A DNA stretch of 64,000 bases from Mesostigma viride. Its lineage: Eukaryota; Streptophyta; Mesostigmatophyceae; Mesostigmatales; Mesostigmataceae. The notes under the pieces are model-generated. The model was given only the letters and a program-made list of their open reading frames with translations, did not search any database and was not told the origin of the DNA. The translations under genes were made by a program, and so were the position numbers. Location: contig RPFO01000774.1 of NCBI GenBank assembly GCA_009746045.1, positions 122,001 to 186,000 of the forward strand, in the 5' to 3' direction. Positions within the stretch are counted from its first letter, which is position 1. Each line of letters begins with the position of its first letter. Shown in pieces: positions 1,302 through 54,542 of the stretch.

Positions 1302-1746
1302 GGGAATACAGCAGTAGTAGTGTAGAATAGATAGACCGTGGCCATGTACATGTACGCCTCCTAGAGGCACTATCCTAGCTAAGCCACACGCTTTATTTAA
1401 TCATGTACATGTGTGCCTATGATGTGCCACACTCCAGATGATGCCTAGCTTTATTTAGCTATGTTGTGCCCATGCAGGGAGTAACTCTCTGCTGAGACGC
1501 CATGCCCTAGCCTTTTTGTATAGCTCTGCTGATCTTCCCCCCCATGACAGGCTCCCCCTTCGCTGGGCATAGCTTGAAGATCATGGGGATGCAAGTGCCC
1601 TGGTGCACCTAGAGCAAGGGTCCTTTACATCCCCACCCTTGCAGGAAGTAGCTTAGGATGTATGATAGGCCATATGCCCCCTCTCAAGGGCTATGTGCTA
1701 CATATACTCCCAACGGAGTTATGTTACAATTCAATTCAATTCAATC
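1302..1746 (+). mobile_element. 3' UTR and tail of ORF1-only LINE-like element
   Basis: About 400 nt of non-coding sequence links the ORF1 stop to a terminal hairpin (1700-1724) and an (ATTCA)n tail at 1726-1746. The 44.2-kb copy has the same 3' UTR with its hairpin at almost the same distance from the stop. The element body therefore ends without an RT gene. This recalls mammalian HAL1 ('half-L1') elements, which keep ORF1 only. Confidence 0.7.
1700..1724 (+). other. 3'-terminal bulged hairpin, CAAC loop
   Basis: Outer stem ACATA/TATGT, unpaired T on the 5' side, inner stem ACTCC/GGAGT, loop CAAC. It sits just before the simple-repeat tail. Other copies in the window keep the shape with different base pairs. 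Confidence 0.75.
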
Positions 1747-1965
1747 GTCTGGAGTGTGGCTCATCATAGGCACACATGTACATGACTAAAAAGGCTAGGC
1801 CTCAGCTGGTATAGTGCCTGTAGTAGACGACCCCCATAACCCTTGGGACCTCAGGGTTTTGCTAGGTATAGCGCCTACGTGCTAGGTAGGTAGGGTCCAA
1901 GGGCCAACTTTTGGAAATTTTCAGCGTATGTGTCTGATATTTTTGTTTCGGACACCCCCCCTGCA

Positions 1966-2675
1966 GGGTATGCCTCGTATTTTGGGACGAGATTAGGCAG
2001 CGTAGGATAGCATTTGTAGGACACCTTGCTCGCACCAGCCAGGTACGTCGACACTGCCCTTGGTCTGGCAGGCCCCCAGCGGCTTGGCCAGCCAGGGCGG
2101 CATATTCTGACCTGGCCTGGCCCCAAGGGCATTCCCAAAAGGGTAGGGAAACATGTCACGAACTACATCCAGATGTTACTGGACGACCTCGTGGTCCCAG
2201 CTCAGTTTGAACACCGCATCCACTCTCTCTTGCCCGCACTAGCCAGGTCGACACCACCCTTGGTCTGGCCGGCCCCCAGCGGCTTGGCCAGCCAGGGCGG
2301 CATATTCTGACCTGGCCTGGCCCCGCGGACATTCCCAAAAGGGTAGGGAAACCTGTCACCAACTACGTTCAGATGTTGCTGGACGACCTAGTGGTCCCAG
2401 CCCAGTTTGAGCACCGCATACACTCTCTCTCCCGTCTTTGGACTGTCATGCAGGACAAGACGCGGTGGAAGAAGATTGTCAAGGCGCACACGCCCGACCC
2501 TGTGGGCAAGCCACCTCCCCCCAAGCGGAGGAGGCGTTTTGATGAGTAGTGTAGTTAGGATTTTCTAGATAGCCTAGCGTTAGTATAGTTCGACCACGCG
2601 GCTTCCTCCACCCCATCCATCATGGAATATGTGCTACATGACCTCCCCACGGAGGCATGTTATAATTTAATTTTT
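1966..2675 (+). mobile_element. AP-B LINE 3' fragment with internal duplication
   Basis: A 5'-truncated piece encoding the C-terminal end of the AP-B polyprotein. The recognisable peptide is RQRRIAFVGHLART, followed by a VDTALGLAGPQRLGQP segment also present at 18.7 kb and 26.0 kb. About 200 bp (2029-2229) is repeated in tandem at 2236-2440, destroying the frame. The first unit has a 4-nt insertion (ACGT/GTAC at about 2041) missing from the second unit and from the 18.8-kb copy. Coding ends at TAG near 2549, followed by a short 3' UTR, terminal hairpin and an AATTTAA-type tail. Confidence 0.8.
2636..2660 (+). other. 3'-terminal bulged hairpin, CCAC loop
   Basis: ACATG / bulged A / CCTCC - CCAC - GGAGG / CATGT at the 3' end of the AP-B fragment, followed by an A/T simple repeat. 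Confidence 0.75.
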
Positions 2676-2679
2676 AATT

Positions 2680-3010
2680 TAATCCACTCTCTCTCCCTTC
2701 TTTGGACTGCCATGCAGAACAAGACGCGGTGGCAGAAGATTGTCAAGGCTCACACGCCATGCAGCCCCTAGCGCTGTGGGCAAGCCACCTCCCCCCAAGA
2801 GGAGGAGGCGTTTTGATGAGGAGTGTAGTTAGGATTTTTCTAGACTATAGATAGCTTACAGTTAGGTTAGTTCGATTACGCGGCTCCTTCCACTCCACCC
2901 ATCCATCAAGGAATATGTGCTACATGATCTCCCAACGGAGGCATGTTATAATTTTTTTAAATTTAATTTAATAATCTCCAAACGGAGCAATGTTGTAATT
3001 TAATTGAATT
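2680..3010 (+). mobile_element. Two further AP-type LINE 3' stubs in tandem
   Basis: 2680-2960 repeats the last ~120 coding bases and 3' UTR of AP-B (a TTTGGACTGCCATGCAG block, then a hairpin at 2922-2946). It is joined directly to the tail of the previous copy. A third, very short stub carries a degenerate hairpin at 2976-2987 (CTCC-AAAC-GGAG) and a TTTAATTGAA tail. The head-to-tail order suggests repeated insertion at the A/T-rich tail of a resident copy. Confidence 0.65.
2922..2946 (+). other. 3'-terminal bulged hairpin, CAAC loop
   Basis: ACATG / bulged A / TCTCC - CAAC - GGAGG / CATGT. The T opposite G closing the inner stem is a wobble pair in RNA. Confidence 0.7.
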
Positions 3011-3371: not shown

Positions 3372-6300
3372 CTAGCAATAGCTATCTGTCAAGCGGCGGC
3401 GTTTAACCTTCTCGACGCGCTCGCTGTCTGAAAATCTCTCCGCGTCTGTTCGCAACAAGGAGCACACCTCGGTGGAGTCCTCGGTCAACCCTGAGATGTC
3501 TGCCCCACTGACCAGTATCCTGCTGCTGAGTAGGCGGTCAATCTCGGCGCAGATCAACGCCTTGGTGAAAGGCTTGGGCAGTGTGCCGTTCATGCCGGCC
3601 ACCATGTAGCTCTGACGGTCGCTTTCCATCACGTTGGCAGTGAGGGCCACGATGGGGCGCCCGTAGCCCTTGGCGCGCAGCTGGCGCGTGGCAGTGATGC
3701 CATCACACACGGGCATTTGGATGTCCTGACCACGCACGTTGTGGATTGAGCAAGGACGACGAGCGACGTGCAGCACACAAAAAAAATTAGAAAAATGATT
3801 CAGGGTTACCACGATCAGGCAGCTATGTTCTACGATGACGGATGGAGTGACACAGGTCAACAAACATGAATGAAGGGGAAAAAAAACGGGACCAACAGTG
3901 GGGTTGAGAAAAAGGCGCCATGCCACAGTCAGAAACTTAAACCAGCAGCCATACTAATCATTTTAAAAATACCTTTCCAAAACAGTTACCCTCTCTTGGA
4001 TCTAGTCTACCAGGCTACAAGCCACTACTGACGCCACGGGCACAACAAATGACGTCGTAACATGACACGGCAAAAAAACAAACATTAGCACAAAGGTGTA
4101 GGATCTGCCGAGGTGTATGCCAGTGCAGACAGCTTGTGGCAGCAATAAGATGGGCAAGAAAGCACAAAGAGGTCGACCGCACCCCTCTCCCCCCCCCCCC
4201 CCCTTTACCATGAAGATGAGGTCGTGGCGTGGCGAGTCGGCAACGCGGTCCATCACGGCCAGGCCGTTGGCGGCGGGGATGGTCTTGATGCCGAGCGAGG
4301 AGAACATCTTCTCCAGGATGCGGCGGTTCAGGTTGTTGTCCTGCACAAGGGGGCACACCGGTGCAAATTCACACAATGTAAAGACAGGGACATGGAAATG
4401 TCAGATTAAGTGCACGGCGCTCTTCCCGGGAGGCTCATGCGCATGCCAGAACCAGCATGAGCTCTTACTCCAAGCAGAAAGAAAAGGCCCGCCCAGCTTC
4501 AATGATCCGACATGGAGCGTTCCCAGAAGAGCCCACGGGCCAGGACCACCAGGGTCACAATCTTTTTTGTCCATGGGCTCATGGTGCTACCCGCACACAC
4601 GTGCTTTGTGCGACCAGTGACCAGGGCCACCACTCTTCTGACCGACCACACAGCATTGCCAGCGAGGAGCAGGCAAACTAACACAGGCAAGGCTGCGATG
4701 GGCCGCCAACACACCACGGCGGCTCCCACCGGTTCCCTGCATGGGTGCATACCAAAGTGGGTGGCATTGGACCTGACTTGGACACCCCCAAAGTAAGCCC
4801 AGCAGACAGCAACGCACAAGCTCAGCCCTGTTGTCAATGCGGCTAGCTTCTTTGCTCTTGCACGCCCACCCACCTCTGCCAGAATGGCGGTCAGCCCATA
4901 GTTGCGAGACACATCCTCCTCGCCGCTCCTTGTCATGCTGGCGCACGGCGGCGGTGTGAGCCTCACGGGCAGCGCCACTGTGAACGTGCTGCCCTTGCCC
5001 TCCTCGCTGGTAACCGTCACGTCGCCGCCCATCAGCGCTGCCAGCTTCTTGCTGATCGTGGTGCCCAGGCCTGGGGAAACAGCGGGTGAGCAGGTGAGCG
5101 GGCCAACACAGCAAAAAGAAGGCAGCACATGTGTAAGAATGGAGAGCTTATACATCACAGTCGTACAGTTTTGCAAAAGGGTAAGAAAAAAAAAAGCGAA
5201 AAGGAAAAAAAAAGCATAGGGGGGGGGCCGGGGGGGGGGGGGGGGGGGGGGGGCGCACGGCATGCGACAGCAGTGGGAAAGGTTCAGGTGACAATGCGGA
5301 AGGGCAGTGCAAACAAAGGGAAGCGCCAAAGGAGAAGGGATCAAAGTGTGAGGCCGGACCGCATGGGCATGGGTGGGAAGGTGAGGGACAACATTGAAAT
5401 TTCGGTTTGCATACGTGGAACAAAACTAACCCACTACAAGCTACTTTTCTGGCATGTGCTTCTGTACAGCTAGAAACCCACCCTCCCAGCCAAAACCAAC
5501 CCACACGGGAATGCAACACGCCATCCGCACACACCCTGTGCATCCCACCCCACACGCTCACAATCCCTGGTTGTGGCCTCACCTGAGCCGCCGTAGATGC
5601 GCGTGGTGCTCCCGTCGGCCTGCTGGAAGCGGTCGAACACGTGCTCGACCATGTAGGGGGACATGCCGATGCCCGTGTCCCGGATGCGAATGCGCAGGTC
5701 CCAGATTCCCTCGTACACCGACGACTCAGACGCGGAGCCGCTGCTGCAGTGCCGGCAGGGGGCTCCGCTGCCCTTGGCGCGCTCCTCACTGCTGCGCTCG
5801 GACCGGCTGCTGGTGGCATCGTTGTTGTTACTACTGCTATTGGCGTTATTGGTGGCGATGGTAGTGTTGGTGGGGATGGCAATGTCATGGTGGGCGATGC
5901 TGCTTGAGCTGCTGTTGCCGTCGCGCTCGCCCCCCACCGGCAGCGCAGCGGTGGGCAGCACGCACGTGCAGCACCCGCGCGGCCGCCGCCCCATCTCTGT
6001 CTCCACGATCACGCTGCCCTTATTGGTGAACTTGACCGCGTTGCCCACGCTGCAGGGGACCATGGGGTGGCGGGATAAGGAGATGGTGGGGCAACAGGTG
6101 CGGATGGTGGGATGGTGGGGCAACAGGTGCGGATGGTGGGATGGTGGGACAGCAGGTTCAGATGGTGGGATGGTGGGGCAACAGGTTCGGATGGTGGGAT
6201 GGTGGGGCAACAGGTTCGGATGGTGGGATGGTGGGGAAGAGGCAGCCAGGGCCGTGGGGGCGCGAGCAGGGGGGCTTGAGAAAGAGCGCAGGCAGAGAAG

Positions 6301-11593: not shown

Positions 11594-11925
11594 GGGGGCC
11601 TTGGCCTCTCCGTGATTTGGAAGAAGATGATGGACAAGGCCAAGTGGGCCCAGGTCATAGAGGACAACGATGAGCCCCCCTCTGTGGGGAAGCGCCCGCG
11701 TGTGCAAACCCACGGGAGGCATGCCAGACAGCTCCCCTAGGGCAGCGTGATGCTGTTTAGATAGACGTGGTAGTCATGCTGTTAGATAGTGGTAGTAGGT
11801 AGCTGATATAGATAGATTAGACCGGTACTGACGTAGGGCTGTTTGCACCCATCCATCCACCCATAGTCGCGGGGTTAATGCTCCGTGACTCCCCAACGGG
11901 AGCACGAGTCTAACTAACTAACTAT
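11594..11925 (+). mobile_element. AP-A LINE 3' fragment
   Basis: Encodes the last ~48 residues of the AP-A protein (GGLGLSVIWKKMMDKAKWAQ onward), matching the minus-strand AP-A copy at 19.7-19.85 kb. It continues through the stop near 11,740 and a ~150-nt 3' UTR to the hairpin at 11,881-11,908 and a (TAAC)n tail. It is 5'-truncated, as is usual for LINE insertions. Confidence 0.85.
11881..11908 (+). other. 3'-terminal bulged hairpin, CAAC loop
   Basis: CTC(C)GTG / bulged A / CTCCC - CAAC - GGGAG / CACGAG, followed by a TAAC repeat. Confidence 0.75.
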
Positions 11926-19517: not shown

Positions 19518-19545
19518 CTCGTGCTCCCGTTGGGGAGTCACGGAG
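19518..19545 (-). other. 3'-terminal bulged hairpin, CAAC loop
   Basis: Minus-strand CTC(C)GTG / bulged A / CTCCC - CAAC - GGGAG / CACGAG, followed by TTAAT repeats. Confidence 0.75.
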
Positions 19546-19685: not shown

Positions 19686-22076
19686 CTATCTGGCGTGCCT
19701 CCCGCGGGATTGCACACGCGGGCGCTTCCCCACTGGGGGGGGCTCATTGTCCTCTATGAACTGGGCCCACTTGGCCTTGTCCATCATCTTCTTCCAAATC
19801 ACGGAGAGGCCGAGGCCCCCCATGTCCTCTACTAGCTGTTCCTTGAAGGTGCGGGCCTTGCGGCGTCTAACATCACTAGGCCCAGCCCACGTCAGGAGGT
19901 GCCGGCCAGGCTGGGCTGGTCGCAGTCCTGCGGGGGGGCCACGTGAGGTGTCTACCTGGTTGGTGCGAGCTAGGTGCCCTACAAGCTGCAGGCGGCGTTG
20001 CTTAATGGTGCTGGTGATATAGGGCATGCCCTGGTACAGGTCCTCATTGCGGACATGAGCAGCATATCCTACTCTGAAAATGGAACGCAGCATGCTGGTG
20101 ACCGCGCCGTCCAGCTTGCGGGCCAGGTCGGCGGTGAGGGTCCACGTCTCGGCGCCATACGTGAGAACAGGAAGGACGAGGACCTTGAACAGGTCCTGTT
20201 TCTCGATCTTGCCCAGGGGCTTGCGCCACAGGGCCCGGTACTGGCGTAGAGCGTGCCAGGCGAGGGAGATGCGATGGTCCACATCAACCTCGCAGCTAGG
20301 GAGCAGGCTGCCCAGCAGCTTAACGCGGTCCCGATACAGGACTCGAGAGCCGTCTAGGAGATAGAGGGGCGGCGGTTGGTGGGTAAGCCCAACCGCCAGG
20401 GCCTCTGTCTTCTTGCTGACCTCAAGCCCCACTGCACGGGCCTCGAGAGCCAGGCAGTCAAGCCATGTCTGCACGTGCTCAGTGTCCTCGAAGAGGGTGG
20501 TGTCGTCTGCGTAAATGATGTCTGCTAGCCGAATCTCCGTGTCCGCACCGCCATGCCAGAATTTGTTAGCAACCTGCACTCCTGGTTCCCTGCCCACGAT
20601 GCGTGCAAATCGCTTGCGCGCCTGAATCATTACATATTCGACCACAATAATGAACAGGTAAGGCGACAGCACGCAGCCCTGCCACACACCCTTCTGTAAA
20701 GGGCATGGGGGCGTGGTCCCGTAAGAAGTGCGCACCGAAGTGGTGGACCCTTCATACAGGTTGCGGATGACAGCAATCAGGGGGCGGGGGATCCGGAACA
20801 ACTCGAGGATGTCCCAAAGCGCAGGCCAGAAAACCGAATCGAAGGCTTTGATGAAGTCCACCAGCACAAGGTGCAAAGGGGACTCACCAGGCTGAAGGCG
20901 TTGCAGTTCCTCCACCAGACGGCGAGTAGCGAAGAGCGCCTGTACTGTGTTGCGACCTGAACGGAAGCCGTGCTGAGTCTCGCTGAGGTGACCGTCCAGG
21001 GCCGTGCGCAGGCGGTTCAGGATGAGCCGCATCAGAAGCTTGAGGGGGGCACTTTGAATGCACACCCCTCTGTAGTTGCCGGGGTCGGCAGGCGACCCTT
21101 TGTTCTTGTACAGCATCGTGCGAAAACTGTGTTGCCAGGCCGCTGGAGGTGGCTGCGACGACAGCAGAAGGCGGTTGCAGATGTCCCGGAAGAGTGCTCA
21201 GCATAACACCTGTGTCCTCGAATTCGGCTGCAAGTTTTACAACTGCGGCCGGAATCTCGTCAGAGCCGGTGGCTGCGTCATAACGCAGGCGCTGGACCGC
21301 CTCCGTGACCTCGCGAGAGGTGAAAGGAGGCATGTCAGACGGGTCGCCAAGTGGGCCGACCAGCGGGGGGACTAGGTAGTCCGCCGCTGACCTAGGCGGG
21401 GCAGGGGGCCCATGCAGCGGGGCCGGCCAGGGCGGCCGGGCGTGCGGCGGCGGCTGGGAGCAGGGGCCGGTGGGGGCGGCGCAGCTGTCCCCACGACCTC
21501 GGCCGTGGCCGTGGCCCAGGTACGAAGCCGCTTGGCTGGGGCGCCGGGGACATCGTGGCGGTGGGGCCGGCCGAGGCCGTCCGGGTGCCCGAGGCGCTTG
21601 TACCAGAACCAGGCCCCCTTGCCGTCGTGCTTCTGCTGGCAGCTGCGCAGGTCCTTGACCATCTGCTGAGCATCTGCCTTCTCAGCCTGCTCGTAGGCGG
21701 CCCTCAGAGCTGCTTGCAGCCCAGGTTTGGCGATCGGATCTCTGTTGCGGCGGAGCATCTGCCTGGCGGCGACCACTGTCGGTGCGTGACGGTGGACAGC
21801 AAGCTGCCGTCGCGGAGGCAAGGTGGGGAGGGTGCGGGCAGCCAGGCGGTACTTGGCGGCGACACCACGGAGGATCACTGAGATATCCCCCGGCGGCGGA
21901 ATGGCGTGTAACTGCTGTCGGCTGCCCCCGGCGTCGAATACGGCCAGGAAATCATCCCTGTGCGACATAGCGGCCTGCTCTGCTGCTGACATCTTGTCGG
22001 CATCCTTCAGCACAATCCGCAGAAGATGTTGTACATCATGCTGGATTCGAGTAGATCTCGCGAAAACAAGCATGTT
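19686..22076 (-). pseudogene. AP-A LINE ORF2 (reverse transcriptase), frameshifted and 5'-truncated
   Basis: The longest intact part (21,116-19,686, 476 codons) holds the RT core: GNYRGVCIQSAPLKLLMRLI, HGFRSGRNTVQALF, motif A VLVDFIKAFDSVFW, motif B GVWQGCVLSPYLF, and motif C IIYADDTTLF. A C-terminal TYGAETWTLTADLARKLDG and RRLQLVGHLART region follows. These patterns are typical of L1/RTE-type LINE reverse transcriptases, which prime on nicked chromosomal DNA. Upstream, 21,333-21,190 encodes the RT N-terminus (MPPFTSREVTEAVQRL) in another frame, and 22,076-21,372 encodes the Arg/Ala-rich linker in a third. Frameshifts near 21,190 and 21,350 therefore break the gene. Confidence 0.85.
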
Positions 22077-23145: not shown

Positions 23146-23149
23146 GTAT

Positions 23150-25532: not shown

Positions 25533-25557
25533 ACATGTCTCCGTTGGGAGATCATGT
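25533..25557 (-). other. 3'-terminal bulged hairpin, CAAC loop
   Basis: ACATG / bulged A / TCTCC - CAAC - GGAGA / CATGT on the minus strand. Confidence 0.75.
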
Positions 25558-25796
25558 AGCACATATTCCAGGTTGGATGGGTGGTGAAGAGGAAGCCGCG
25601 TAATCGAACTAACCTAACTCTAAGCTATTATATCTAGTCTAGAAAAGCCTATCTACGCTACTCATCAAAACGGCTCCTCCTCTTGGGGGGAGGCGGCTTG
25701 CCCACAGGGGCTGGCGTGTGCGCCTTGACAATCTTCTGCCACCGCGTCTTGTCCTGCATGGCAGTCCAAAGACGGGAGAGAGAGTGGATGCGGTAC

Positions 25797-26705
25797 TCAA
25801 ACTGGGCTGGGACCACTAGGTCGGCCAGCAACATCTGGGTATATTCTGATCTGGGTATAGGTCATGGCATGTTTCCCTACCTTTTTAAGGATGTTCTTGG
25901 GGCCAGGCCAGGTCAAAATATGCCAACCTGGCTGGCCGAGCCGCTGGGGACCGGCCAGACCAAGGGCGGTGTCGACCTGGCTGGTGCGAGCAAGATGTCC
26001 TACAAATGCTATCCTACGCTGCCTAATCTCATCCGAAATACGAGGCATACCGTGATACAAAGACTCTAAGGACCTACGTTGAGAAAACCCAACATTCAGG
26101 ACCTGTCGGAGCATCCGGGTGACCGTGCCGTCTAGCTTGGCTTCCAGTGTTGCCGTGAGTGTCCATGCCTCGGCGCCATACGTGAGCACCGTGAGGACGA
26201 GGACCTAATGAAGAGCATGCGCTTGCGGTGCTCGTCCTGGAGGCCCTTGGAGCGCCAGTAGGTGTTGAGCGAACGGAGCTTGGCCCAGGAAAGGCTGATG
26301 CGGGTGTCCACATCGTCGGCAGTGTCAGGAAGCCAGCTCCCCAACAGATTGAAGCGGTCGCGGAACGGGACCTCCGTCCCGTCGAGCAGGCGCGGCAGCG
26401 GTGGTTAATTCACTGGAGGCCCCAATCACCATCGCCTCAGTTTTGACACTAATCTCCAACCCCACCGCCCTCGCCTCCAGGCCCAGACAGTCCAGCCAGG
26501 TCTGAATGTGCTCGGGGCGCGCGATGAGGGTGGTGTCGTCCGCATAAATCAGGTCAGCCAGGCGGTAACCCGTGCTAGCTAACCCCGCCGTGCCCACGCT
26601 CGTTAAGGATGTCCAAGCCTGGCTCGAACCCCAGGCTGAGAGCAGTATAAAGCGCGCACGTGCCTGGCGCATGACGTCGGTGGTCCACGACAATAATATG
26701 TATAA
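25797..26705 (-). pseudogene. AP-B LINE RT C-terminal part (downstream of RL-B insertion)
   Basis: 26,693-26,410 encodes motif C (LADLIYADDTTLI) and VGLEISVKTEAMVIGA. The frame then breaks at an apparent TTAA insertion (about 26,404); removing it restores a SEPPLPRLLDG-like continuation parallel to AP-A. 26,189-25,797 encodes TYGAEAWTLTATLEAKLDG and RQRRIAFVGHLART. Around 25,845 a ~16-bp phrase is duplicated in tandem. Confidence 0.8.
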
Positions 26706-27170
26706 TTAATGAACACGGCAGGTTACACGGCGGACCGGGCGGAGCGGGCCAAGCTCCTGGCCTACGGCGACGTCGGGCACCATCGTGTGGTGCCCTTTGT
26801 CCTGGAGGAGTTTGGGGCCATGGGGCCCCTGACCTCCGCCTTCTTCAAGGAGTGTTGCCGGCTCCGGGAGGACCGGCTGGACCTGGAGGGCCAGCGGGCC
26901 CCATGGTCGGCGCGGACCTCAGTGGACGTCATGCATATTGGCGTCAGCGCTTGTCGGTGGCGCTGACTCGGGCCATGGCTGACATCATGCTCCGCCGTAC
27001 GCGGGCTGATTTTGCGGTGCAGCAGGGCTATTAGGTTCCTCCCGTTAGGAGTTTCCATTGGTCTTATCGTAGTATAGAGATTTGACATGGCTCTGTATAG
27101 AGGTTTATAGCTGGGCGTTTGCTTTGGTTTGAGTGATTTCACTCTGCTGTAAGTAATTATATTATTAAAT
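26706..27170 (+). mobile_element. RL-B LINE 3' fragment inserted in AP-B
   Basis: Carries the RL-B C-terminus and 3' UTR. The flanks share TAATGAAC (about 26,697-26,705 and 27,172-27,181). Relative to other RL-B copies it has two 4-nt insertions, near 26,920 (CAGT/TCAG) and 26,932 (TGCA/GCAT), each shifting the frame. Confidence 0.88.
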
Positions 27171-27180
27171 ATATAATGAA

Positions 27181-29372
27181 CAGGTATGGAGACAGGACAC
27201 AACCTTGCCACGCCCCGTGGTGAAGGGGGAATGGTGGGGTGGTGCCTTCCGCAGTCCGCACTACTGCCTGTGAGCCCTCATACAGTCGGCGAATGGCAGC
27301 AATAAACGCTGGTGCCAGGCACTCGGTCCAGAGCTAGGATGGCCCAAAGAGCCTCCCAGAGGACCGTGTCAAAGGCCTTGATATAGTCAACAAAAATGAA
27401 GACCAGCGGCAAACTGTCAGGGCAAAGGCGACGCACCTCCTCCATCAACCGACGCGCGAAAAACACAGCCATGACAGTGTTACGACCACGACGAAAACCC
27501 ATCTGAGACTCACCCAGGTGTGGGTCCAGCGCGGCGCGGAGCCTGTGCACAGCATCATGCGCATGAAGACCTTCAGCGCGGCGCTCTGGAGGCAGACACC
27601 CCGGTAGTTACCGGGGTCAGCAGCAGAGCCCTTCTTGTACAGCATGACGCGGATGGCCGTCTGCCACTCAGCAGGCGGAGGCTCGTCAGCTCGAGCAGGA
27701 CACGGTTGCAGAACGCCAGCAGAAGATCCTTAACCGCCAGATCAGGGGTCGACCCCTGATCTTCAACAGCTCAGCAGAAAGGTGGCCGGCACCGACCGCT
27801 GCATCGTACCGCAGGCGAGCAAGGGCGCCGTCCAATTCCTTCAAAGTGAAGGGGGGGACGACATCGTCAGTGGCAAGGCAGCCCTCCTGCAAGGCGGGGA
27901 CTTGGTAGTCCGCGGCCGAGGAGGGGGGCGCTGGTGGCGGCGGGGGTCCGGCGACCCCGAGGCGGGCGGCCGTCTCGGGGTGAAGCGGCGGGGGGGGGCG
28001 CGAGCCCCACCGGTCAAGGAAACATTGTGGGCCAACCAGCGGTCAAGGCTGACCGGCGCCGTGCCGTCCCCCGTGTGCTCCACCGGGGTGCGCTGCCGCC
28101 GGCCGCCGAGCCGGTCGAGGTGGTACCACATGTCCTTGCCCTGGTTGCGGGCCTGGCAGGCCTTGGCATCCGCGATGCACTGGGCCGCCTCCGCGTCCTG
28201 AGCGTGCTCGTAGGCCTCCACGAGGGCGGCCTTGAGCACTGGTTTCTGCAGCGGGTCCCGGTTACGCTTGAGGCGGTGCCGGGCGGCCAAGACCTTGGGG
28301 TCCTGGCGGTAGAGCGGGCCGGGGCGGCGGCGGGGCATGGCCGGCAGGTGCCGGGCCGCCAGCAACGGGGCACGGGCCGCAAAGCCCGCAAAAATGGCGG
28401 CGTTGGGGGCACCCTTGTCCAGCTCGTCGACGTCCGCCCGGGCGTCCAGGGCCGACAGGTATACTCCAGTCGGCACCGGTTCCGCTCGTGTTTGGCGTCC
28501 GTCCAGTCCTCGGGATCTCCCTTGACCGGACGTAGAGCAGACCAGTCAGGGCGGACCACTGGGGCGCGGCGCGCGGGGACGTGGAACCGGAGCCGAAGGG
28601 TCGCGCGCACCAACCGGTGGTCAGAGCACACCGTCGGCGTGTCAAACACTCGTGTGTCCAGGACCGAGGTGCACCGGGACTGCCGCGTACCACCACGTAG
28701 TCCAAACAGGCCTGACGGCCGTTAGGGCCACGAAAAGTGACCAAGTCCTGTGAGGGACGTTGGAAGTGGCAGTTGACAGCAACCATCCCGCTATCCCGCA
28801 AAAAGGCAGAAAACAGGGGAGTGTTGTCGTTAGCAGTAGTGGCAGCAGGAGCAAAGCGGCTGCCAGCAGTGCCCACGGGGAGCGTGGCATTGGCGTCGAG
28901 CAGCATAACCAAAAAGTGGCGGGCCGGAGTGACCCCCTCAAGGTTATGCAAGGATCGATTCGAAGAACTCCTCACGGGCCGACTCAGGTAGACCACTGTG
29001 GGGCGCGTAGCCCACCCCCACCGTGAGGTGGTGTTTAGACCGCCCCTCGACAGAGGTGAAATGTGCTACCATAAGGCGTGGGGTTAGAAACTTAAGCGTG
29101 CTGAGGCTAGCAACTGCCAGCGGCGAACACAAAAGACCAACACCACCTTGGCCAGACGTACCGGCGGCTGCCAGCGAAGTAAAACCGCCAGCCACCCGCC
29201 AAGCGATCAGTGCTCACCATGCCAAGTGGCACCGTGCGGCCGTGTTCCTGGACGCCTAATATAGATACACGATGCTCAATGCAAAAGGCGACTAGCTCAG
29301 GACTCTACCCGGCAGCTATGGTCGTCATCTAGCAATGTGCGGGTGTTAAAAGTGGCAAGGGCCAAGGATGCC
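27181..29372 (-). pseudogene. AP-B LINE AP-endonuclease and RT N-terminal part
   Basis: In coding order: 29,370-28,944 gives an endonuclease start (ATFNTRTL, later VGVGYAP); 28,996-28,650 gives LLDANATL, TFRGPNGRQACLDYVVVRGS; about 28,630 gives CSDHRLVRATL. The Asn, Tyr-Ala-Pro, Asp-Tyr and Ser-Asp-His motifs are those of exonuclease III/APE-type LINE nucleases, which nick the target. After an Arg/Ala-rich linker (28,476-27,900), 27,890-27,278 gives the RT start (VVPPFTLKELDGALARL), GNYRGVCLQSAALKVF, MGFRRGRNTVMAVFF and VDYIKAFDTVLW. At least five frame changes separate these blocks. Confidence 0.85.
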
Positions 29373-29761: not shown

Positions 29762-30310
29762 ACTCAGCACCACTAATTAATTAATTACATGATAAATTAA
29801 ACTCGTGCTCCCGTTGGGTCACGGAGCACCGAAGTGCTTTTAATCCCTGCGTGTGCACAACAGAAAGGGCACAGACCCCCTTTCTCCTTCATGCCAAAGG
29901 CATGTCGCAGCTGCTATTGGACCCGATAAACGATCCGGCAATCTGTGGGTGCAATAAGACCCATGTGAGCATATGATAACAGGTGCGTGGGCAAGTAATC
30001 TGAGCAAAGCCATGACGTAGCATGGTTGTACAAGGACTAAGCTAAGGCTATGGCTGGTTGTGTACCGTGTGTTAGCGGTGCACGTGACTAGGTATAATGG
30101 CTCAGCTAGGCAAACATTCTAGGCATGGCTGCCATGGCGGCAGAGACTACCAATGATTACAAGCTAGGGCTATTCTAGCCCGCAGGGGGCGTCCACATCT
30201 TGTGGTTGATCATCAGGTCCCCGCCCCTCCAATACACCTTGGGACTTGGGACGTCAGGATTGTTGATGCCCAGCACGTTGAACGCGTTGTGTCAGCACAG
30301 CGATCCCCCC
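29762..30310 (-). mobile_element. ORF1-only LINE-like element, 5'-truncated third copy
   Basis: Minus-strand coding sequence ends VYWRGGDLMINHKMW-TPPAG-stop at 30,177-30,175, the same ORF1 C-terminal signature as 1.2 kb (VYWKGAAIYVGHKPW). A ~350-nt 3' UTR leads to a damaged hairpin (29,806-29,829; three bases of the 3' arm missing) and a TTAAT tail. Again no RT lies between ORF1 and the 3' end. Confidence 0.6.
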
Positions 30311-42154: not shown

Positions 42155-42181
42155 TCCGTGGTCCCCCAACGGGGACACGAG
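42155..42181 (+). other. 3'-terminal hairpin, CAAC loop, AP-type stub
   Basis: GTCCCC - CAAC - GGGGAC with a short bulged outer stem ending ACGAG, followed by an ATTAATTAAT tail. The same module lies in the corresponding part of element 2 (54,515-54,542, minus strand). Confidence 0.7.
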
Positions 42182-42357
42182 ATTAATTAATATTATTTAA
42201 TTAATTCAGTTAATTAATTAATTAATGCACACCACGAGTCACACACCTGTAGTCACATGCAGCTCAGTATATTCACATAGCATCGCACCATGCAAACATA
42301 CTACATGCATTAATTGTATACTACTGTAGTATTTGCGTGCATGCACAGCCACATATA

Positions 42358-44239: not shown

Positions 44240-44912
44240 ATTAATTAATTAATTAATTATCAACATCACTCCGTTGGGAGTAGACGTAGCACATAGCCCT
44301 GAGAAGGGGCATATGGCCTTTAATACATTCTAGGCTACTTCATGCAAGGGTGGGAATGTAAGCTACCCCTGCTCTAGGTGCACCAGGGCACCTGCACCCT
44401 CATGGTCTATCACGCTATGCCCGGGTAAGGGGGGAGCATGCCTGTGAGGGAGGAAGATCATCATGGCTATACAAGAGCTAGGACATGGCTTCTCGACAGA
44501 GAGCATCTCTCTGCATGGCATAGCATGGCTAAATTCTTAATGCAACATCCATGGGGGTCCCATTATAGACAAAGCATGGCTAAATGTTGAAGGCATCATC
44601 CATGGGGGCCACTAGGGGCGCACATGCGCGTGGGCCACATGCTAGGCTAAGCCTTACTAATCTACACTACTGGTATATATATTCCTAGTCTGAGGTGGCA
44701 GGAGGGGGCTGCCAGGGCTTGTGGTCAACGTGGATGACCGCCCCCCTCCAGTATACCGGCTTCCCCCTTGCGCTCTGCCGGAGCTGAAGGTAGGTCGGCC
44801 ATAGCTCGCGTCGCCGCTGTTGCTGGGCCAGGGTCAAGTCGTCGTCCAGCGTGAAGCGAGTCTCCGAGAGCTTCTTGCGGCATTTAAGGAACGCCACTGC
44901 TGGTATACCCAC
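44240..44912 (-). mobile_element. ORF1-only LINE-like element, 5'-truncated second copy
   Basis: 44,912-44,685 encodes the ORF1 C-terminus (FTLDDDLTLAQQQRRRELWP, then VYWRGAVIHVDHKPW) with the same domain end as 1.1-1.3 kb. The 3' UTR is co-linear with 1302-1699, and the hairpin and TTAAT tail follow. No RT is present. Confidence 0.8.
44263..44287 (-). other. 3'-terminal bulged hairpin, CAAC loop
   Basis: ACGTC / bulged T / ACTCC - CAAC - GGAGT / GATGT on the minus strand, with one G-U pair in the outer stem. Confidence 0.75.
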
Positions 44913-48700: not shown

Positions 48701-49714
48701 TGCCGAGAGGTCCCCCGGATCGCTCGTACCCTGCGATGCCGGTGGAGGGGCAGGGGCCGACCGAGGGGCCGCCCCGGACCGGGAGGCCGGTGCGGCCGCC
48801 GGGCCGCCGGGCAGGCCGTTCTGGGGGGTTTGGCGGCGGCACTGCCGCTCATGCTGGTACCGCCCGTGGATCGAAAAAATCCGCTGGCAATGGGCTGCCG
48901 GGCAGCGGTAGCAGTCCATGGCGCGCATGGCGGCCTCCGTGATGTGGGGGTGGGAAGCCCGAATGTGCACCAGCAACGAATTCCGGTTGGGCAGGCGCGC
49001 GCCACACGGGTCACCAAGGGGACCATCGACTTGGCAATAATGGAAGCCATCTGAGGGGGTGCGCCCACCCGGTTGGGCCGGCCCGGGTCGAGAGGGGGAG
49101 GGGTCGGGAGCACCCTCAGCCAGAGGAACTACAGCTGCAGCGGAACCCAGGGCGGGGCCGGCCGCCGGGCGGTCAGCAGGGCTCGTGGCAGCCGAGGACA
49201 AGACCGGCGCGGGGACGGCCCCCACGGCCGGGAGGGGGGCGCTGGAGGAGGCAGCCAAGCCGGCGCGCGACCCACGACCACGCACAGGGGAGGCAGGTGT
49301 CGGGGCAGGCGCGTGGGACTGGCGGCGCACGGACACGGGCGAGGGCCCCAGCGGGAGAACGCCAGGAGGCAAGGGGGAAAGGACCGCGGCCCGGCAAAGG
49401 GGGCAGGTGGCGGAGGTCGTGTGCAAGCTCGTGGCGATGCAAGCTTGATGGAAGACGTGGCCGCAAGCAGGGAGGCGGCAGAGACCGTCACCAGGGCGAG
49501 GCAGGTCCAAGCAGATGGGGCAGGAGGGGCCGCTGGCAGTGACATCCACCAAGTGGGCCGGCCCGTAGTGGGCGGGCGCCGCGTCCCACCCCAGCTCCCA
49601 GCTCGGCAGTCGGGCGATCTCATCGGCGGAGAGAAGACGGCGGCGCGGACCAGCAGGGTGCCAGACATGGGGGATGCCCGCAAGCTCGAGCACATCGTGC
49701 AAGATGGCGGGCAC
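45794..49714 (-). CDS. RL-A LINE ORF2: RING + C2H2 + reverse transcriptase + restriction-like endonuclease
   Basis: Intact 1,306-codon frame. The first in-frame start-like codon is GTG, so translation probably begins elsewhere (see ORF1). Domains: RING-H2 with Cys65, Cys68, Cys84, His86, His89, Cys92, Cys104, Cys107; C2H2-type fingers around CGARLPNRNSLLVHIRASH and CPAAHCQRIFSIHGRYQHE; RT with motif A KVDCHNAF (Asp667), motif B GTQQGDPLGP and motif C YMDD (757-760); a CCHC knuckle CGSCGLALDTTGTHYIAC near residue 1100-1120; and a PD-(D/E)xK-like nuclease with RPDI (Asp1170) and LLIDVSV (Asp1186). The nuclease would nick DNA and the RT would copy the RNA at the nick. RLE placement resembles CRE/R2/NeSL-group LINEs, but the clade was not determined. 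Confidence 0.92.
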   Translation of the reverse strand: MPAILHDVLELAGIPHVWHPAGPRRRLLSADEIARLPSWELGWDAAPAHYGPAHLVDVTASGPSCPICLDLPRPGDGLCRLPACGHVFHQACIATSLHTTSATCPLCRAAVLSPLPPGVLPLGPSPVSVRRQSHAPAPTPASPVRGRGSRAGLAASSSAPLPAVGAVPAPVLSSAATSPADRPAAGPALGSAAAVVPLAEGAPDPSPSRPGPAQPGGRTPSDGFHYCQVDGPLGDPCGARLPNRNSLLVHIRASHPHITEAAMRAMDCYRCPAAHCQRIFSIHGRYQHERQCRRQTPQNGLPGGPAAAPASRSGAAPRSAPAPPPASQGTSDPGDLSAGWAFLATLPFAACARNPCMTLPDVPHRARSLFTRCALLSLARMHSHPLDELGHKLFLVTPRLLLAPLERGVRGVQGAVIARCRRFLLGDWEGLWALQPPASTRVSGAASFARVEADVMRLVKVGELSRAMQKLELTALAPSTPPTLQALRDLHPDEPAFAVPAPATPPPPPIVLDLDIFTAVLKDLPNASSTGPSGWRYEHLSVMAGHGGATALFEAAADLAAGSLAPAARPWLAGARLIALLKDDVPPPAGRVRPIACGEVLRKLVSKVICRQKAPEFRAYFCPNRSDTEESVAAQLGVATKGGSDIIVHTVQAYLETHPTHVALKVDCHNAFNAVTKASIFEAVGEAFPDLLAWTAACYGEPTQLSFLMEDGTFADIASRTGTQQGDPLGPFYLSAPLHKALQGVHAAHPDVVLLAYMDDIHALGPADAVVAALAALEVAMAAINLRLTLPKCAVFSPQGDCSGFPAAIPGALARARGFSCLGVPVGDPDYVEEELRATVEQRTHVLETWARLKDPQTKGLLLWFCAHPRVVHWLRGAPPHLVRLAAEGHDERIQAALQVLLPGPSLPAHSMRLATLPCRMGGCGLTRAARLAPAAFLGSVAQAWAEIRRLVPSAVSAIPDLVTPSPFPFVQAVQDSYLGIQQACDLVRPAQAVHRRLPRGTPGVSTVVSPSVFPACVHEKQQKTYAGILHCADWMGLHASLNDQGKAWLHSVSLEGSVGSAFLRALPMSPLFTLVPALYAIALRHQLFAPQPLITAGASCGSCGLALDTTGTHYIACMGGQQNQNWFLYLHTALLRVVCAMVRSVFPHSTIKCEDADGAALYSPNHRPDITVLDYDGQGCHLLIDVSVARPLSGRHILRAAVDAGAAAAVAERDKFASYGNVGPHRVIPFVLEEFGAMGPKTAEFFHECCQRREDRLDLEGQTAPWSARTWSSYWRQRLSLALTRTVADVLFRRTRADFVATHAV

Positions 49715-49728
49715 GGCCGCACCCGCGC

Positions 49729-50898
49729 TCAGCTCAAGAACACGCCCCCCCCCGCATCGTACAGAACCAGGTCGCCGGCGTGCACGGTGACAGGAGCCCC
49801 GAAGTCAACGCGCAGGCGGGCGGCTTGCGCTGGGGTGACCGCCGTAGTCAAGCGCCCGTGGGCCTGCGCAACAAGGCCGGCCGAGCCGGGCCCGGCAGAG
49901 GCAAGAAACGTGTGCAGCTGAGGGCGATCGAGCAAGGCGTGGTCGGTGGCCCCCCCAGCGAGATATGTCGCACGGGCGGCCTGCTGGGCCTGCACGGCAA
50001 GCCCTGTAGCAAAGAGCACCACCGCCTGCGCCACTTGAGCGTCCAGATTCAGGAGCCATTCTTGGCGCACCGCGGGCAGGTGCCAAGGCAGGCGGCCGCC
50101 GGCATGGTAGTCCTCGAGGACAAACCCCCAAAGCGTGGAGGCAAGGACAGGGGGGGAGGCTGCCTGCAGCATGTGCCGGACACGAACCACAAGGGCACTA
50201 AATTCAGGGGGCCGTGGGAGCGTAGGAAACGCCGCGTGCAAGCCGACAGCGTCCAACAGCAAGGGGCAATACAGCCAAGAGAACGTGGCGTGCCGGAGCG
50301 CGCTGACGCCCGCAATGTTGGTGGGGGGCCAAACGGAGAAGTCGTGGGACCCAAGCGCGGCCGACCAGGGGCCCACCACAGGAGTCGCCGCAGGGTGTCC
50401 CACAGCCTCAGGGAGGAGAGCCGCCAGGGACCCCTCAAGCACAGGAGGACGCAGGTCAGTGGCCACCGCCGTGCTGGCCGGAGGTGGATCCCCAGAGCTA
50501 GGCGGGGCAGGGCCAGGGGACCCCGCGGAGGGGCCGGACGTGACGGCGCGGGGAGAGCGGGAGCACGGTGTGGAACCCTCCACGAGGGCCGCAAGGCCCA
50601 GGAGAGGGTCCAGCGAGGGGCTGCGGGAGGGGGCGCGGGCCGAATGGGATCCCGGGGTCGACACGGCCGCGCGTCGGGAGCCTAGGGACGGCCGAGGCGG
50701 GGCCACGCAATGAGGGCACGCCCAAGGACCCGGGGGAGGCAGCCGGAAGAGGGGCGGGACCAAGCAGCGCGTGTGCCAGCCGCATTGGCACGAATCACAC
50801 ACAAGGAGACGGGGGGCATCCTCACCACTGTGGCAGACCTCGCACACAAGCGAGAGTGGCACAGGGGCGCCACGACCGCCGTCGTCCAGGTCGCCCAT
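49729..50898 (-). CDS. RL-A LINE ORF1: PHD-finger protein, 389 aa
   Basis: Residues 19-64 form a textbook PHD finger: Cys19, Cys22, Cys34, Cys37, His42, Cys45, Cys61, Cys64, with Trp59 two residues before the last pair. PHD fingers commonly read histone H3 tails. A Pro/Ser-rich linker and a hydrophobic, probably folded C-terminal domain follow (AGVSALRHATFSWLYCPLLL to LVLYDAGGG). The frame ends in TGA just after a 9-C run (49,745-49,753, plus strand). One extra base there would fuse this ORF to ORF2 without a stop (reading RVLELSAGAAVPAILHD). The element may therefore encode one ~1,700-residue protein, with the break a homopolymer error or real decay. Confidence 0.85.
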   Translation of the reverse strand: MGDLDDGGRGAPVPLSLVCEVCHSGEDAPRLLVCDSCQCGWHTRCLVPPLFRLPPPGPWACPHCVAPPRPSLGSRRAAVSTPGSHSARAPSRSPSLDPLLGLAALVEGSTPCSRSPRAVTSGPSAGSPGPAPPSSGDPPPASTAVATDLRPPVLEGSLAALLPEAVGHPAATPVVGPWSAALGSHDFSVWPPTNIAGVSALRHATFSWLYCPLLLDAVGLHAAFPTLPRPPEFSALVVRVRHMLQAASPPVLASTLWGFVLEDYHAGGRLPWHLPAVRQEWLLNLDAQVAQAVVLFATGLAVQAQQAARATYLAGGATDHALLDRPQLHTFLASAGPGSAGLVAQAHGRLTTAVTPAQAARLRVDFGAPVTVHAGDLVLYDAGGGVFLS

Positions 50899-51692: not shown

Positions 51693-51711
51693 GGGTGTTT
51701 AATATATATAT

Positions 51712-54226
51712 GCTTCCTGGAGGTGATGCGTGCGGTCCCGCGGGCTTCCTCTACCGGGCCGTCGGGCTGGCGCTACGAGCACTTGGAGGTCCTGGTGGGG
51801 CATGGGGGCGAGGACATTCTCTTTGACACCCTCATTGACCTGGCGGCTGGTCGCGTTCCTCCCGCTGCGCGCGAGTGGTTAGCGGGCGCTCGCCTCCTCG
51901 CTCTGCTCAAGGGTGTCTTGCCCCCCCCGAGGGCAAGGTGCGCCCGATCGCCTGCGGTGAGGTGCTCCGCAAGCTCGTGGGCAAAGTGATCTGCCGCCAA
52001 AAGGCGCCCGAGCTCCGTGCCTTTTTCTGCCCGCCCCTCGCAGCGGGTGAGACCTCGGTGGCGGCCCAGCTGGGGGTGACGACTCCAGGCGGGGCGGATA
52101 TCCTCATCCATTCGGTGCAGGCCTACCTCGAGGCCCACCCCACCCACGCTGTCGTCAAGGTCGACTGCCACAACGCGTTCAACAGTCTGTCCCGCGCCAG
52201 CATGTTTGCGGCCGTCATGGAGTCCTTCGAGGACTTGTACGCTTGGACAGCCGTGTGCTACGGCCAGCCCGGCCAACTGGTTCACATCATGGAGGACGGC
52301 ACTCGCGGCGGCCTGCTGTCGCGGTCGGGCACCCAGCAAGGGGACCCCCTGGGACCCCTGTACTTTGCCGCCCCCCTCCAGGGTTGCCTCCAAGCGGTCC
52401 ATGCTGCCCACCCGGCAGTCGCTATTCAGGCCTACTTGGATGATATCTACCTTCTGGGCCCTGTGCCGGACACCACCGCGGCTCTGCTGGCACTGCAGAC
52501 CGCGGTGGCCGACATCAACCTCCAGTTGACCCTGGCCAAGTGCGCGGTGTACTCGCCCCAAGGTGATTGCTCCGGCTTTCCGCCCCAGCTCTTGGGCCGG
52601 GACGAGCGCCTCCATGGGTTGGATGTCCTCGGCGTTCCGGTTGGCGACCCCGCGTTTGTCATCGATGCTCTGCGGGCCGCCCTCGAGGCACGCACTGAGG
52701 TACTGCCCTTGATTGCGCGCCTTCATGATTCGCAGACCAAGGGTCTGCTTCTGTGGTTTTGCGCTCACCCTCGCGTCGTTCACTGGCTCCGGGGCGCTCT
52801 TCCGGCTCAGGTCCGGCTGGCCGCCGAGGGCCACGACGAACGCATCCAGTCGGCCTTGGCGCAGCTGGTCCCGGGCCCCGACCTCCCGCCACATGCTATT
52901 CGCATTGCCTCCCTGCCTGCACGGATGGGTGGCTGCGGTCTGACTCGTGCCGCCCGGCTGGCCCCAGCAGCATTTTTGGGCTCCGTCGCTCAGTCGTGGG
53001 CGGAAAGCTGCCGGCTCCTGCCCCTTTTGGCAACGGCAGCGCCTGACCTCCTGGACCCCAGCAGCCCTTTGCCCTTCGTCACCGCCATCCAGGAGGCCTA
53101 TGCTGAGATCCAGCAGGCCTGTTCTCCCGTCCGTGCCGCTCAGGCGGTACAGCGCCACCTCCCTCGCGGCACTCCCTCGGTCGCCTCCGTTCAATCTCCC
53201 GCCGCATTCCCTGCTCGCGTCATCGATAAACACCAGAAAACCTACGCGGGTATTCTGCACACGGCTGATTGGATTGCTCTTTTCGCGGACCTCAACGCCC
53301 AGGGACGTGCGTGGCTGTTCTCGCTTTCCTTGCGGAGTGTGGGCTCGGCGTACCTTCGTGCTCTTCCCATGGCCCCCCCATTCGCCTTGGCTCCCAGCCA
53401 CTACTCGGTGGCGCTCCGGCACCAGCTATTTGCCCCGCAGCCTCTTGTTCCGGCCGGGCGGCCTTGTGGTAGCTGTGGGCAGCCGCTGGATCCCACGGGG
53501 ACTCACTACCTTGCCTGCATGGGGGGCCAACAGAATCAGAATTGGTATTTGTATTTGCACACTGTCCTCCTGACGGTGGTGCTCGCCATGATTCGGTCGG
53601 TTTTCCCCCACGCGAACATCCGGTCCGAGGATGCGGATGGCGCTGCCTTCTATTCCCCCAACCACCGGCCTGACATCGTGGTGCTGGACTTTGAGGGGGG
53701 TGGCCGGCATCTGCTTATTGACGTTTCGGTGGCGCGGCCCTTGGCTCTTAGCCACGTGGCTGGGGCCTCCCTCACGGCAGGTTACGCCCGGACCGGGCGG
53801 AGCGGGCCAAGCTCCTGGCCTACGGCGACGTCGGGCACCATCGTTTGGTGCCCTTTGTCCTGGAGGAGTTTGGGGCCATGGGGCCCCTGACCTCCGCCTT
53901 CTTCAAGGAGTGTTGCCGGCTCCGGGAGGACCGGCTGGACCTGGAGGGCCAGCGGGCCCCATGGTCGGCGCGGACCTGGACGTCATATTGGCGTCAGCGC
54001 TTGTCGGTGGCGCTGACTCGGGCCATGGCTGACATCATGCTCCGCCGTACGCGGGCTGATTTTGCGGTGCAGCAGGGCTATTAGGTTCCTCCCGTTAGGA
54101 GTTTCCATTGGTCTTATCGTAGTATAGAGCTTTGACATGGCTCTGTATATAGGTTTATAGCCATGGGCGTTTGCTTTGGTTTGAGTGATTTCACTCTGCT
54201 GTAAGTAATTATATTTTTAATATATA
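51712..54226 (+). mobile_element. RL-B LINE, longest copy, 5'-truncated
   Basis: Begins after TTTAATATATATATG and runs through RT and RLE domains to a 3' UTR (54,085-54,226) with the GAGTGATTTCACTC hairpin and a (TA)n end. It lies head-to-head with RL-A. An RL-A 3' stub follows at 54,227. Confidence 0.9.
51723..54084 (+). pseudogene. RL-B LINE reverse transcriptase/RLE, two or more frameshifts
   Basis: Blocks: 51,723-51,930 (GPSGWRYEHLEVLVGHGGED); 51,930-53,780 in a second frame with motif A VVKVDCHNAFNSL, motif B GTQQGDPLGPLYF, motif C YLDD, the CCHC knuckle, RPDIVVLDFEG and LLIDVSVARP; and 53,785-54,084 in a third frame to MADIMLRRTRADF-stop. The first shift lies in the C run at 51,918-51,928; the second in a short rearranged stretch at 53,785 (TTACGCCCGG where other copies have TTACACGGCGG). 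Architecture matches RL-A from the RT onward; the N-terminal finger region is missing. Confidence 0.9.
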
Positions 54227-54330
54227 TTCATTGAGAATGATAGATTACGGAGGTGAGATAGGCATGCAACATAAGGAAAAACCCGATAACTGGGAGAATA
54301 ACCCTGAAGAAATTAATAACCCTGAATAAA
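54227..54330 (-). mobile_element. RL-A LINE 3' UTR stub
   Basis: Reverse complement of the last ~95 bp of RL-A (TTCATTGAGAATGATAGATT onward) abutting the (TA)n end of RL-B. Confidence 0.8.
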
Positions 54331-54514
54331 TTTTAATATATATGTGGCTGTGCATGCACGCAAATACTACAGTAGTATACAATTAATGCATGTAGTATGT
54401 TTGCATGGTGCGATGCTATGTGAATATACTGAGCTGCATGTGACTACAGGTGTGTGACTCGTGGTGTGCATTAATTAATTAATTAACTGAATTAATTAAT
54501 TAATATTAATTAAT

Positions 54515-54542
54515 CTCGTGTCCCCGTTGGGGGACCACGGAG
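54515..54542 (-). other. 3'-terminal bulged hairpin, CAAC loop
   Basis: CTC(C)GT / bulged G / GTCCCC - CAAC - GGGGAC / ACGAG on the minus strand, with an ATTAAT tail. Confidence 0.75.

Follow-up and report, generated by a model that had tools for sequence, protein, structure and literature searches.

We describe a bulged 3′ hairpin, set ahead of an A/T repeat tail, that in the green alga Mesostigma viride is common to AP-endonuclease/reverse transcriptase (RT) LINEs and to RT-less elements that encode ORF1 only. The hairpin itself is confirmed. We consider it likely that hairpin and A/T tail together act as a stringent-type RT recognition element, which the ORF1-only elements borrow in trans.

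The window, a 64-kb stretch of DNA, was predicted to carry a bulged 3′ hairpin with a C[AC]AC loop at ten listed coordinates, and the sequences at all ten agree with that description. A structural scan of the window (C[AC]AC-type loop, inner helix, one 5′ unpaired base, outer helix) returned these ten sites only, compared with 0–1 site in each of 20 first-order Markov shuffles. Moreover, the minimum-energy fold with flanks includes the bulged hairpin in 12/12 cases (the ten window sites and two loci). With a covariance model partly trained on the window's own ten sites, all ten score E ≤ 4e-7; the next matches are at 63631–63654 minus (E 0.0043), 29803–29824 minus (E 0.034) and 60246–60272 plus (E 0.1). 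The first two are degenerate copies that the original prediction had overlooked (Table 1). It had also called the 42,155 site weaker, yet at 37.2 bits this equals the 54,515 copy. Nor are the ten hairpins separate elements of independent origin, an idea that we dropped: they fall into four families (A, B, D and G), within each of which the hairpins are copies, and thus do not count as ten independent cases. Families were separated by body or flank, as plain single-linkage clustering lumps A with B.

The hairpin measures 25–28 nt, and almost every copy has a CAAC or CCAC loop. The expected architecture of two helices and one unpaired 5′ base holds overall, but D and G have an extra unpaired C in the outer stem, and in some genomic subfamilies the bulge is shifted by one base, giving 6+4 pairs rather than 5+5. 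An Rfam search of the window at gathering thresholds gave 0 matches, and the exact hairpin-plus-tail pattern was found 0 times in viral_contigs and 0 times in genome_contigs.

Table 1. Features of the window (~, approximate limits); the families of the ten listed hairpins follow body or flank.
Feature	Position	Strand	Basis or context
3′ hairpin, family A (ORF1-only element)	1700..1724	+	scan, covariance model, fold
A-element ORF1 (predicted L1 ORF1p-like: coiled coil, RRM, C-terminal domain)	528..1301	+	element ends 1724; homology extends to window start, element probably begins close to base 1 or earlier
3′ hairpin, family B, CCAC loop	2636..2660	+	RT 3′ fragments ~2029-2546
3′ hairpin, family B	2922..2946	+	RT 3′ fragment ~2682-2813
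3′ hairpin, family D	11881..11908	+	RT C-terminal fragment ~11609-11728
3′ hairpin, family B, CCAC loop	19248..19272	+	RT fragments ~18706-19109
3′ hairpin of D LINE with RT ORF 19689-21197	19518..19545	-	scan, covariance model
D LINE reverse transcriptase ORF	19689..21197	-	PF00078 E 2.4e-26 (ORF taken from ATG at 21116)
Match to B endonuclease ORF	~21588-22022		upstream of D LINE RT ORF
3′ hairpin of B LINE	25533..25557	-	scan, covariance model
B LINE, broken	25661..29198	-	RT pieces ~25661-26703, ~27149-28042; endonuclease ORF pieces ~27892-29198
Fragment of other (RLE-type) LINE	~26718-27168		within broken B LINE
Degenerate D′ hairpin	29802..29826	-	absent from earlier list; ORF1-like fragment ending near 30178 minus
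Hairpin, family G copy cut at hairpin	42155..42181	+	downstream sequence as in 54515 copy
3′ hairpin, family A	44263..44287	-	ORF1 fragment upstream, ~44697-44897 minus
Hairpin, family G	54515..54542	-	shared body ~54543-55715 minus, no ORF1 match
Degenerate G hairpin	63630..63656	-	absent from earlier list; covariance model

Families B and D are AP-endonuclease/RT LINEs, and the D RT is 58% identical to that of B over 493 aa. They are possibly RTE-like; the RT matches a Varanus protein named "Craniofacial development protein 2" (29% over 270 aa), a name common among BovB-type RTs. We found no ORF1 inside the B and D copies examined. At one B locus a Penelope-type fragment (4263–5086, locus coordinates) lies directly upstream of the endonuclease ORF starting at 3986, and so leaves no room for ORF1 there. 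Family G was considered as an ordinary LINE 3′ end, a reading that we find doubtful: its copies share a ~1.2 kb body without an ORF1 match and are alike also downstream of the tail, and an endonuclease search of that body gave a chance-level match only (E 0.25).

The claim that RT-less elements share the LINE hairpin was borne out, two ORF1 sets (A and D′) standing beside the two LINE families. We scored an ORF1 match ending 300–900 nt, and an RT match ending 50–330 nt, upstream of each hairpin. ORF1 precedes 28/41 A and 4/8 D′ hairpins, RT precedes none of either (0/41 and 0/8), and the remaining 13/41 and 4/8 have neither. RT precedes 10/16 B and 8/8 D hairpins; 3/16 B hairpins have neither match and 3/16 have ORF1 without RT. 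In two of the latter three another element's hairpin intervenes; the remaining one appears to be a piece of B lodged within an A element. Hence, in the loci examined, A and D′ encode the ORF1 protein without RT. This protein is predicted to be L1-ORF1p-like by a fold comparison from family A, in which the best Foldseek matches are human LINE-1 ORF1p. Identification needed the fold: Pfam at E ≤ 0.1 assigned the window ORF1 to no family, two relatives gave sub-threshold matches only, and all 8 matches of the ORF1 profile to solved structures at E ≤ 1 (best 0.002) fall within the coiled-coil part. The A element is ~2.0 kb long and the ORF1 of the ORF1-only elements is under purifying selection; since a SINE is short and non-coding, with a pol III promoter, A was rejected as one on length and coding content.

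An alternative source of such elements is internal deletion, as in HAL1, of LINEs with ORF1, APE and RT that carry the same hairpin and were missed by our sampling. The hairpin would then be inherited rather than borrowed from B or D. Mammalian HAL1 elements have originated by this route on several occasions (PMC5753468), and the A and B hairpins agree at just 20/25 positions. We nevertheless regard this origin as rather unlikely, given that not one of the 41 A hairpins follows an RT match and that one B locus has no space for ORF1. Moreover, a hairpin core lies at most 1.2 kb from 22/24 distinct ORF1 3′ ends, a link that is itself ascertained because most loci were fetched by the hairpin; in L020 and L024 that core belongs to a neighbouring B or D copy. 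RT was flagged between ORF1 end and core in only 2/24 (L015 and L024), and these matches appear to be neighbouring LINE copies.

Likeness between the families is concentrated in the hairpin. The D and D′ hairpins are identical at 25/25 bases although their bodies are unlike, and the bodies of A and B are likewise dissimilar, with the A hairpin nearer that of B than that of D. In A, B, D and D′ the hairpin adjoins the tail, which is a similar A/T repeat in each. This arrangement would also suit a signal for RNA 3′-end formation or stability (a terminator or processing site), the RT reading the A/T tail alone. We think such a role quite unlikely. It does not readily account for the exact hairpin common to D and D′, nor for the other, RLE-type LINE in the window, at whose printed 3′ ends the covariance model found no match. 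Furthermore, target-site duplications flank not only two full-length A copies but also insertions of ~50 nt comprising little beyond hairpin and tail (L078 and L058). Overall, 19/56 copies have an exact match of 11 nt or longer at the target-site-duplication position, against 0/56 in the control, at least 2 of the 19 (L052 and L053) lying in neighbouring hairpin letters and thus not being target-site duplications.

The original prediction read the differing stems as compensatory change. Of 113 hairpin cores, 23 without an A/T tail were tabled separately (14/23 have 8–10 pairs, so pairing is mostly high there too). Omission of the 20 of the 113 without an assigned body gave 93; removal of L025, L052 and the window copy at 63.6 kb as misassigned or degenerate left 90. 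Against a null of 300 simulations in which tree and substitution count are held constant, 90.2% of cells are paired in the 90 copies (null mean 64.1%, maximum 78.8%) and pair-keeping double changes number 11 (mean 1.4, maximum 7), down from 17 before those three removals. Summed covariation is 184.3 in the 93 hairpins, above the null maximum of 154.7, but 181.8 in the 90 copies, below the maximum of 204.7. Compensation thus stands for pairing as a whole, whereas individually just one of the ten pairs, that beside the bulge, is significant by per-pair G-test against the tree-based null (E = 0.02).

Among distinct hairpins both sides change in 6/10 pairs, the covariation score was reached by 0/500 shuffles, and 95.6% of cells pair compared with 32–55% in slid-pair controls. 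Copies were partly fetched by their stem letters, so inner pairs 1–4 of A and B, together with almost the whole of D, are ascertained. When no stem base was fixed in the search, 64/68 A copies had a standard pair beside the bulge (71 unique places, less 2 copies of B and 1 that lacks the hairpin), where 33.4 are expected under independence; a count of C-G at this pair in family A gave 577. Similarly, a stem-free sample of B gave 869/890 paired cells in the 89 indel-free copies among the 100 listed, with U-G 36, C-G 33 and U-A 12 at the outermost inner pair. The two loop-closing C-G pairs are invariant in the 93 hairpins, where the core pattern itself fixed them, and are C-G in 87/89 and 88/89 of these listed B copies.

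It might be argued that an ancestral palindrome simply drifted, the compensation being only apparent and a product of tail swapping and of copying from a small number of source elements; most of the variety is indeed traceable to few master copies, and several double changes are common to whole families. We judge this very improbable, since pairing exceeds a null that keeps tree and substitution number, the slid-pair controls collapse, and three Watson-Crick combinations plus both wobbles occur beside the bulge.

For the preferred reading of a borrowed recognition element, a B or D AP-endonuclease/RT would recognise the hairpin in the RNA 3′ end, and stringent-type target-primed reverse transcription would begin there. 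The RNAs of A and D′, whose hairpins resemble those of the B and D LINEs, would be copied in trans by these enzymes. From anatomy, target-site duplications and precedent we infer a need of the RT for the hairpin as well as a use of that RT by the ORF1-only elements. Which RT serves which element is a presumed pairing, and the limited A–B hairpin identity means that the true partner of A may be another family. A more speculative and, we think, unlikely extension is a split LINE, with ORF1p and endonuclease-RT on separate mobile elements joined by one RT-recognition hairpin, where the ORF1p of A and D′ would help the ORF1-less B and D and the pairs A–B and D′–D would have diversified in parallel.

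UnaL2 and UnaSINE1 are a stringent-type LINE/SINE pair, and the UnaL2 hairpin loop is GGAUA; the CAAC or CCAC loop led us to reject membership in that hairpin family. The Mesostigma elements nonetheless resemble stringent pairs in having a conserved, covarying 3′ stem-loop ahead of a simple-repeat end and a LINE 3′ tail common to RT-less partners (D/D′ and A/B). Unlike UnaL2 and ZfL2, the LINEs are possibly RTE-like rather than L2, and unlike UnaSINE1-type SINEs, which are short and non-coding, the partners encode an ORF1p-like protein. Zebrafish ZfL2-1 and ZfL2-2 and eel LINEs have a 3′ stem-loop and simple-repeat end, the loop mattering most in recognition, and stringent-type tails are common to RT-less partners (PMC4176376). 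The maize/sorghum L1 lineage offers a plant-lineage parallel, with a compensated 3′ hairpin common to its SINEs, but it belongs to the L1 clade and has a UCU loop with CGAG 3′ of the stem; the available part of PMC3747384 mentions no ORF1-only partner of the Mesostigma kind. Half-L1 HAL1 resembles A and D′ in being RT-less with ORF1p as its only coding content (PMC5753468), whereas it comes from L1, while the Mesostigma RT LINEs examined seem ORF1-less and are linked by a structured hairpin. As a rule, LINEs of the RTE clade contain one ORF and lack ORF1, which also seems to be missing from the B and D copies examined; B and D may possibly belong to that clade. PMC13295347, on RTE-clade LINEs, nowhere uses the terms stem, hairpin or secondary structure.

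LINE/SINE hairpins and HAL1 are thus precedents, and we found no report that combines them as here: literature outside subscription journals and supplements yielded nothing on this hairpin, nor does the Mesostigma genome paper mention it in its section on repeats. Its apparent passengers are parasites that code for protein rather than SINEs. How LINE enzymes recognise hairpins has been established with LINEs of eel and zebrafish (PMC4176376), and the L1 clade has been proposed to have begun as stringent type (PMC3747384). Whether plant-lineage LINEs were stringent from the outset, and whether ORF1p and RT can reside on separate elements, become testable. The two main hairpin variants have 8,604 and 6,028 matches in the M. 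viride genome; these more than ten thousand natural copies with paired variants, from an alga at the root of the plant lineage, are a ready mutational series. In some copies 5′ truncation extends almost to the bare hairpin.

A structural scan for the hairpin, a 25-28 nt bulged stem-loop with a CAAC or CCAC loop followed by an A/T tail, returned ten sites in the window and no others (0-1 in each Markov shuffle), and these are the ten at which the original prediction had placed it, the described structure being present at every one. The same sites scored far above all else in a covariance model search of the window, the model having been built from 18 distinct hairpins that partly comprise the window's own ten. 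Folding with flanks gave the identical bulged hairpin in 12/12 sites. Mesostigma viride is an early-diverging streptophyte alga with a published assembly of 441.8 Mb (PMC6947507), and patterns were counted across a 440-Mb assembly of 2,243 contigs. CTCCCAACGGAG followed by TAATT no more than 12 bases away gave 8,604 matches, in which one long tail may be counted repeatedly (reversed control 0), and the form of the hairpin carried by families D and G gave 6,028 (control 0). Moreover, two stem-free searches, with the flanking letters alone fixed, gave 4,507 matches, including overlapping tail matches more than once (control 29), and 2,814 matches (control 0). Among 100 listed matches of the 2,814, 11 had indels within the hairpin; the other 89 retained pairing in 869/890 cells (single base pairs in single copies), with loops of CAAC (48), CCAC (39) or other sequence (2). 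The outermost inner pair in these 89 was U-G in 36, C-G in 33, U-A in 12, U-U in 7 and G-U in 1, U-G being the natural intermediate between U-A and C-G. In some subfamilies the bulge is shifted by one base, yet ten pairs and one bulge are retained.

Among distinct hairpins, 6/10 pairs vary on both sides and 95.6% of cells are paired, compared with 32-55% when the same columns are paired out of register, figures that take no account of relatedness. A null was generated by re-placing substitutions randomly on body-sequence trees (300 runs, 90 hairpins), the family trees being joined as a star so that between-family changes are scored as a single step. Against this null, 90.2% of cells are paired (null mean 64.1, maximum 78.8) and pairing survives 11 double changes (null mean 1.4, maximum 7), of which 9 fall on internal branches (null maximum 5). 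In a G-test with APC the pair beside the bulge alone passes (E=0.02; family A alone, E=0.007), and this pair is standard in 64/68 A copies among the stem-free matches listed, versus 33.4 expected. The summed covariation statistic lay above all 400 null runs with 93 rows and below the maximum of 300 null runs with 90 rows. Since paired cells beat the tree null while one pair passes individually, pairing is retained overall beyond chance with modest per-pair power; the predicted compensatory change thus holds for the stem as a whole, with individual significance confined to that pair. The hairpin is real, abundant and structure-constrained.

Bodies were assigned to 93 of 113 core sites from the window and fetched loci (A 44, D 19, B 16, D' 10, G 4), leaving 20 without assignment. 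B and D encode a LINE enzyme: B copy L013 matches endonuclease PF03372 (E 8e-6) and RT PF00078 (E 1.6e-23), and the RT match ends ~90-170 nt 5' of the hairpin in B and ~130-170 nt in D. The two RTs are 58% identical across 493 aa, and the nearest protein match of the B-type RT is to a gene model from Mesostigma viride, with 92% identity across 53% of the query. In A, an ORF1 match ends ~410-860 nt (mostly 410-510) 5' of the hairpin, and D' carries the D hairpin on an unlike body, with a 415-aa ORF1 in the L018 copy. Content was tallied for copies with at least 800 nt of upstream sequence and, because loci were mostly fetched by hairpin, describes what lies upstream of hairpins rather than how often ORF1s have one. 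The prediction that RT-less ORF1 elements share the structure was borne out: A had ORF1 in 28/41, neither ORF in 13/41 and RT in 0/41, and D' had ORF1 in 4/8 and neither in 4/8. RT was found in 8/8 D copies and 10/16 B copies (ORF1 3/16, neither 3/16), and the one G copy tallied had neither. Of the three ORF1-bearing B copies, two have the hairpin of another element separating ORF1 from their own, and the remaining one appears to be a B fragment within an A element.

Similarity between families is centred on the hairpin, with 25/25 identical bases in D/D' and 20/25 in A/B, compared with 19/79 and 24/79, respectively, farther upstream; 8 of the 10 bases directly 5' of the hairpin are also common to A and B. 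The hairpin is a candidate RT-recognition element, common to enzyme-bearing and ORF1-only elements in two matched sets. In ZfL2 LINEs, deletion or swap of the stem-loop abolishes retrotransposition, the loop is its most important part, and it is bound by the part of ORF2 that lies between the endonuclease and the RT (PMC4176376). An analogous hairpin here would be recognised in two ways: by direct readout of the conserved CMAC loop and the two C-G pairs that close it, and by the shape of its variable stem. RTE-type LINEs generally have a single ORF, without ORF1 (PMC13295347), and L013 has no space for one. Unlike the mammalian ORF1p-only element HAL1, a deletion product of L1 (PMC5753468), A and D' are not simple deletions of B and D, provided that the latter are RTE-like. 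The ORF1-only elements either captured the tail or stem from an unsampled two-ORF LINE.

In 19/56 copies (controls 0/56) the tail end is matched exactly over 11 nt or more in the upstream region; at least two of these matches (L052, L053) are neighbouring hairpin letters and are not counted. Target-site duplications flank full-length A elements at L014 (13 bp, element ~2.0 kb) and L026 (11 bp), as well as insertions of little more than hairpin and tail at L078 (9 bp) and L058 (11 bp). The latter are what reverse transcription begun at the hairpin and stopped early would leave. B coding sequence is the landing place of A and B copies at L014, L058 and window 2636-2700. Window 2646 and L058 have identical target letters, ATCCACTCTCT, which may reflect a site preference or a single insertion common to both.

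Relatives of the window's ORF1 are Mesostigma gene models in 68/69 cases. The Mesvir1 protein set includes many ORF1-element copies annotated as host genes (P0013-P0081), and its gene count may be inflated as a result. The D' ORF1 (L018:2608-3852) is 53% identical over 68% of its length to a protein labelled Prorocentrum lima (P0086), through contamination, horizontal transfer or shared ancestry.

The window's other repeats are listed in the table. The C-terminal region of the second LINE type presumably resembles a restriction-like endonuclease (RLE), and the covariance model found no hairpin at the listed 3' ends of this type. The RT ORF that we take to be Penelope-like had no match in a Pfam search; the protein identity of its copies suggests recent activity. 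Copies of G share sequence beyond the hairpin and tail, so that G may be an insertion fixed within a larger repeat. Pieces of the RLE-LINE lie close to every G copy in the window.

Other repeats in the window
Feature	Position	Strand	Remarks
Second abundant LINE type	45794-49804	minus	RT PF00078
Second LINE type, copies	51839-54063, 23118-24371, 42330-43315, 55706-58431, 60874-63201		
PHD-finger ORF	49729-50898	minus	adjoins second LINE type
RT ORF, presumably Penelope-like	12466-14499	plus	
Presumed Penelope-like RT ORF, copies	32273-33190, 56497-57106		~95-99% protein identity
Repeat G	54515-55715	minus	
Repeat G	63546-64000	minus	
Repeat G	42155-42360		
Tandem array	39452-40930		four copies, 393-bp spacing, 97-99% identical
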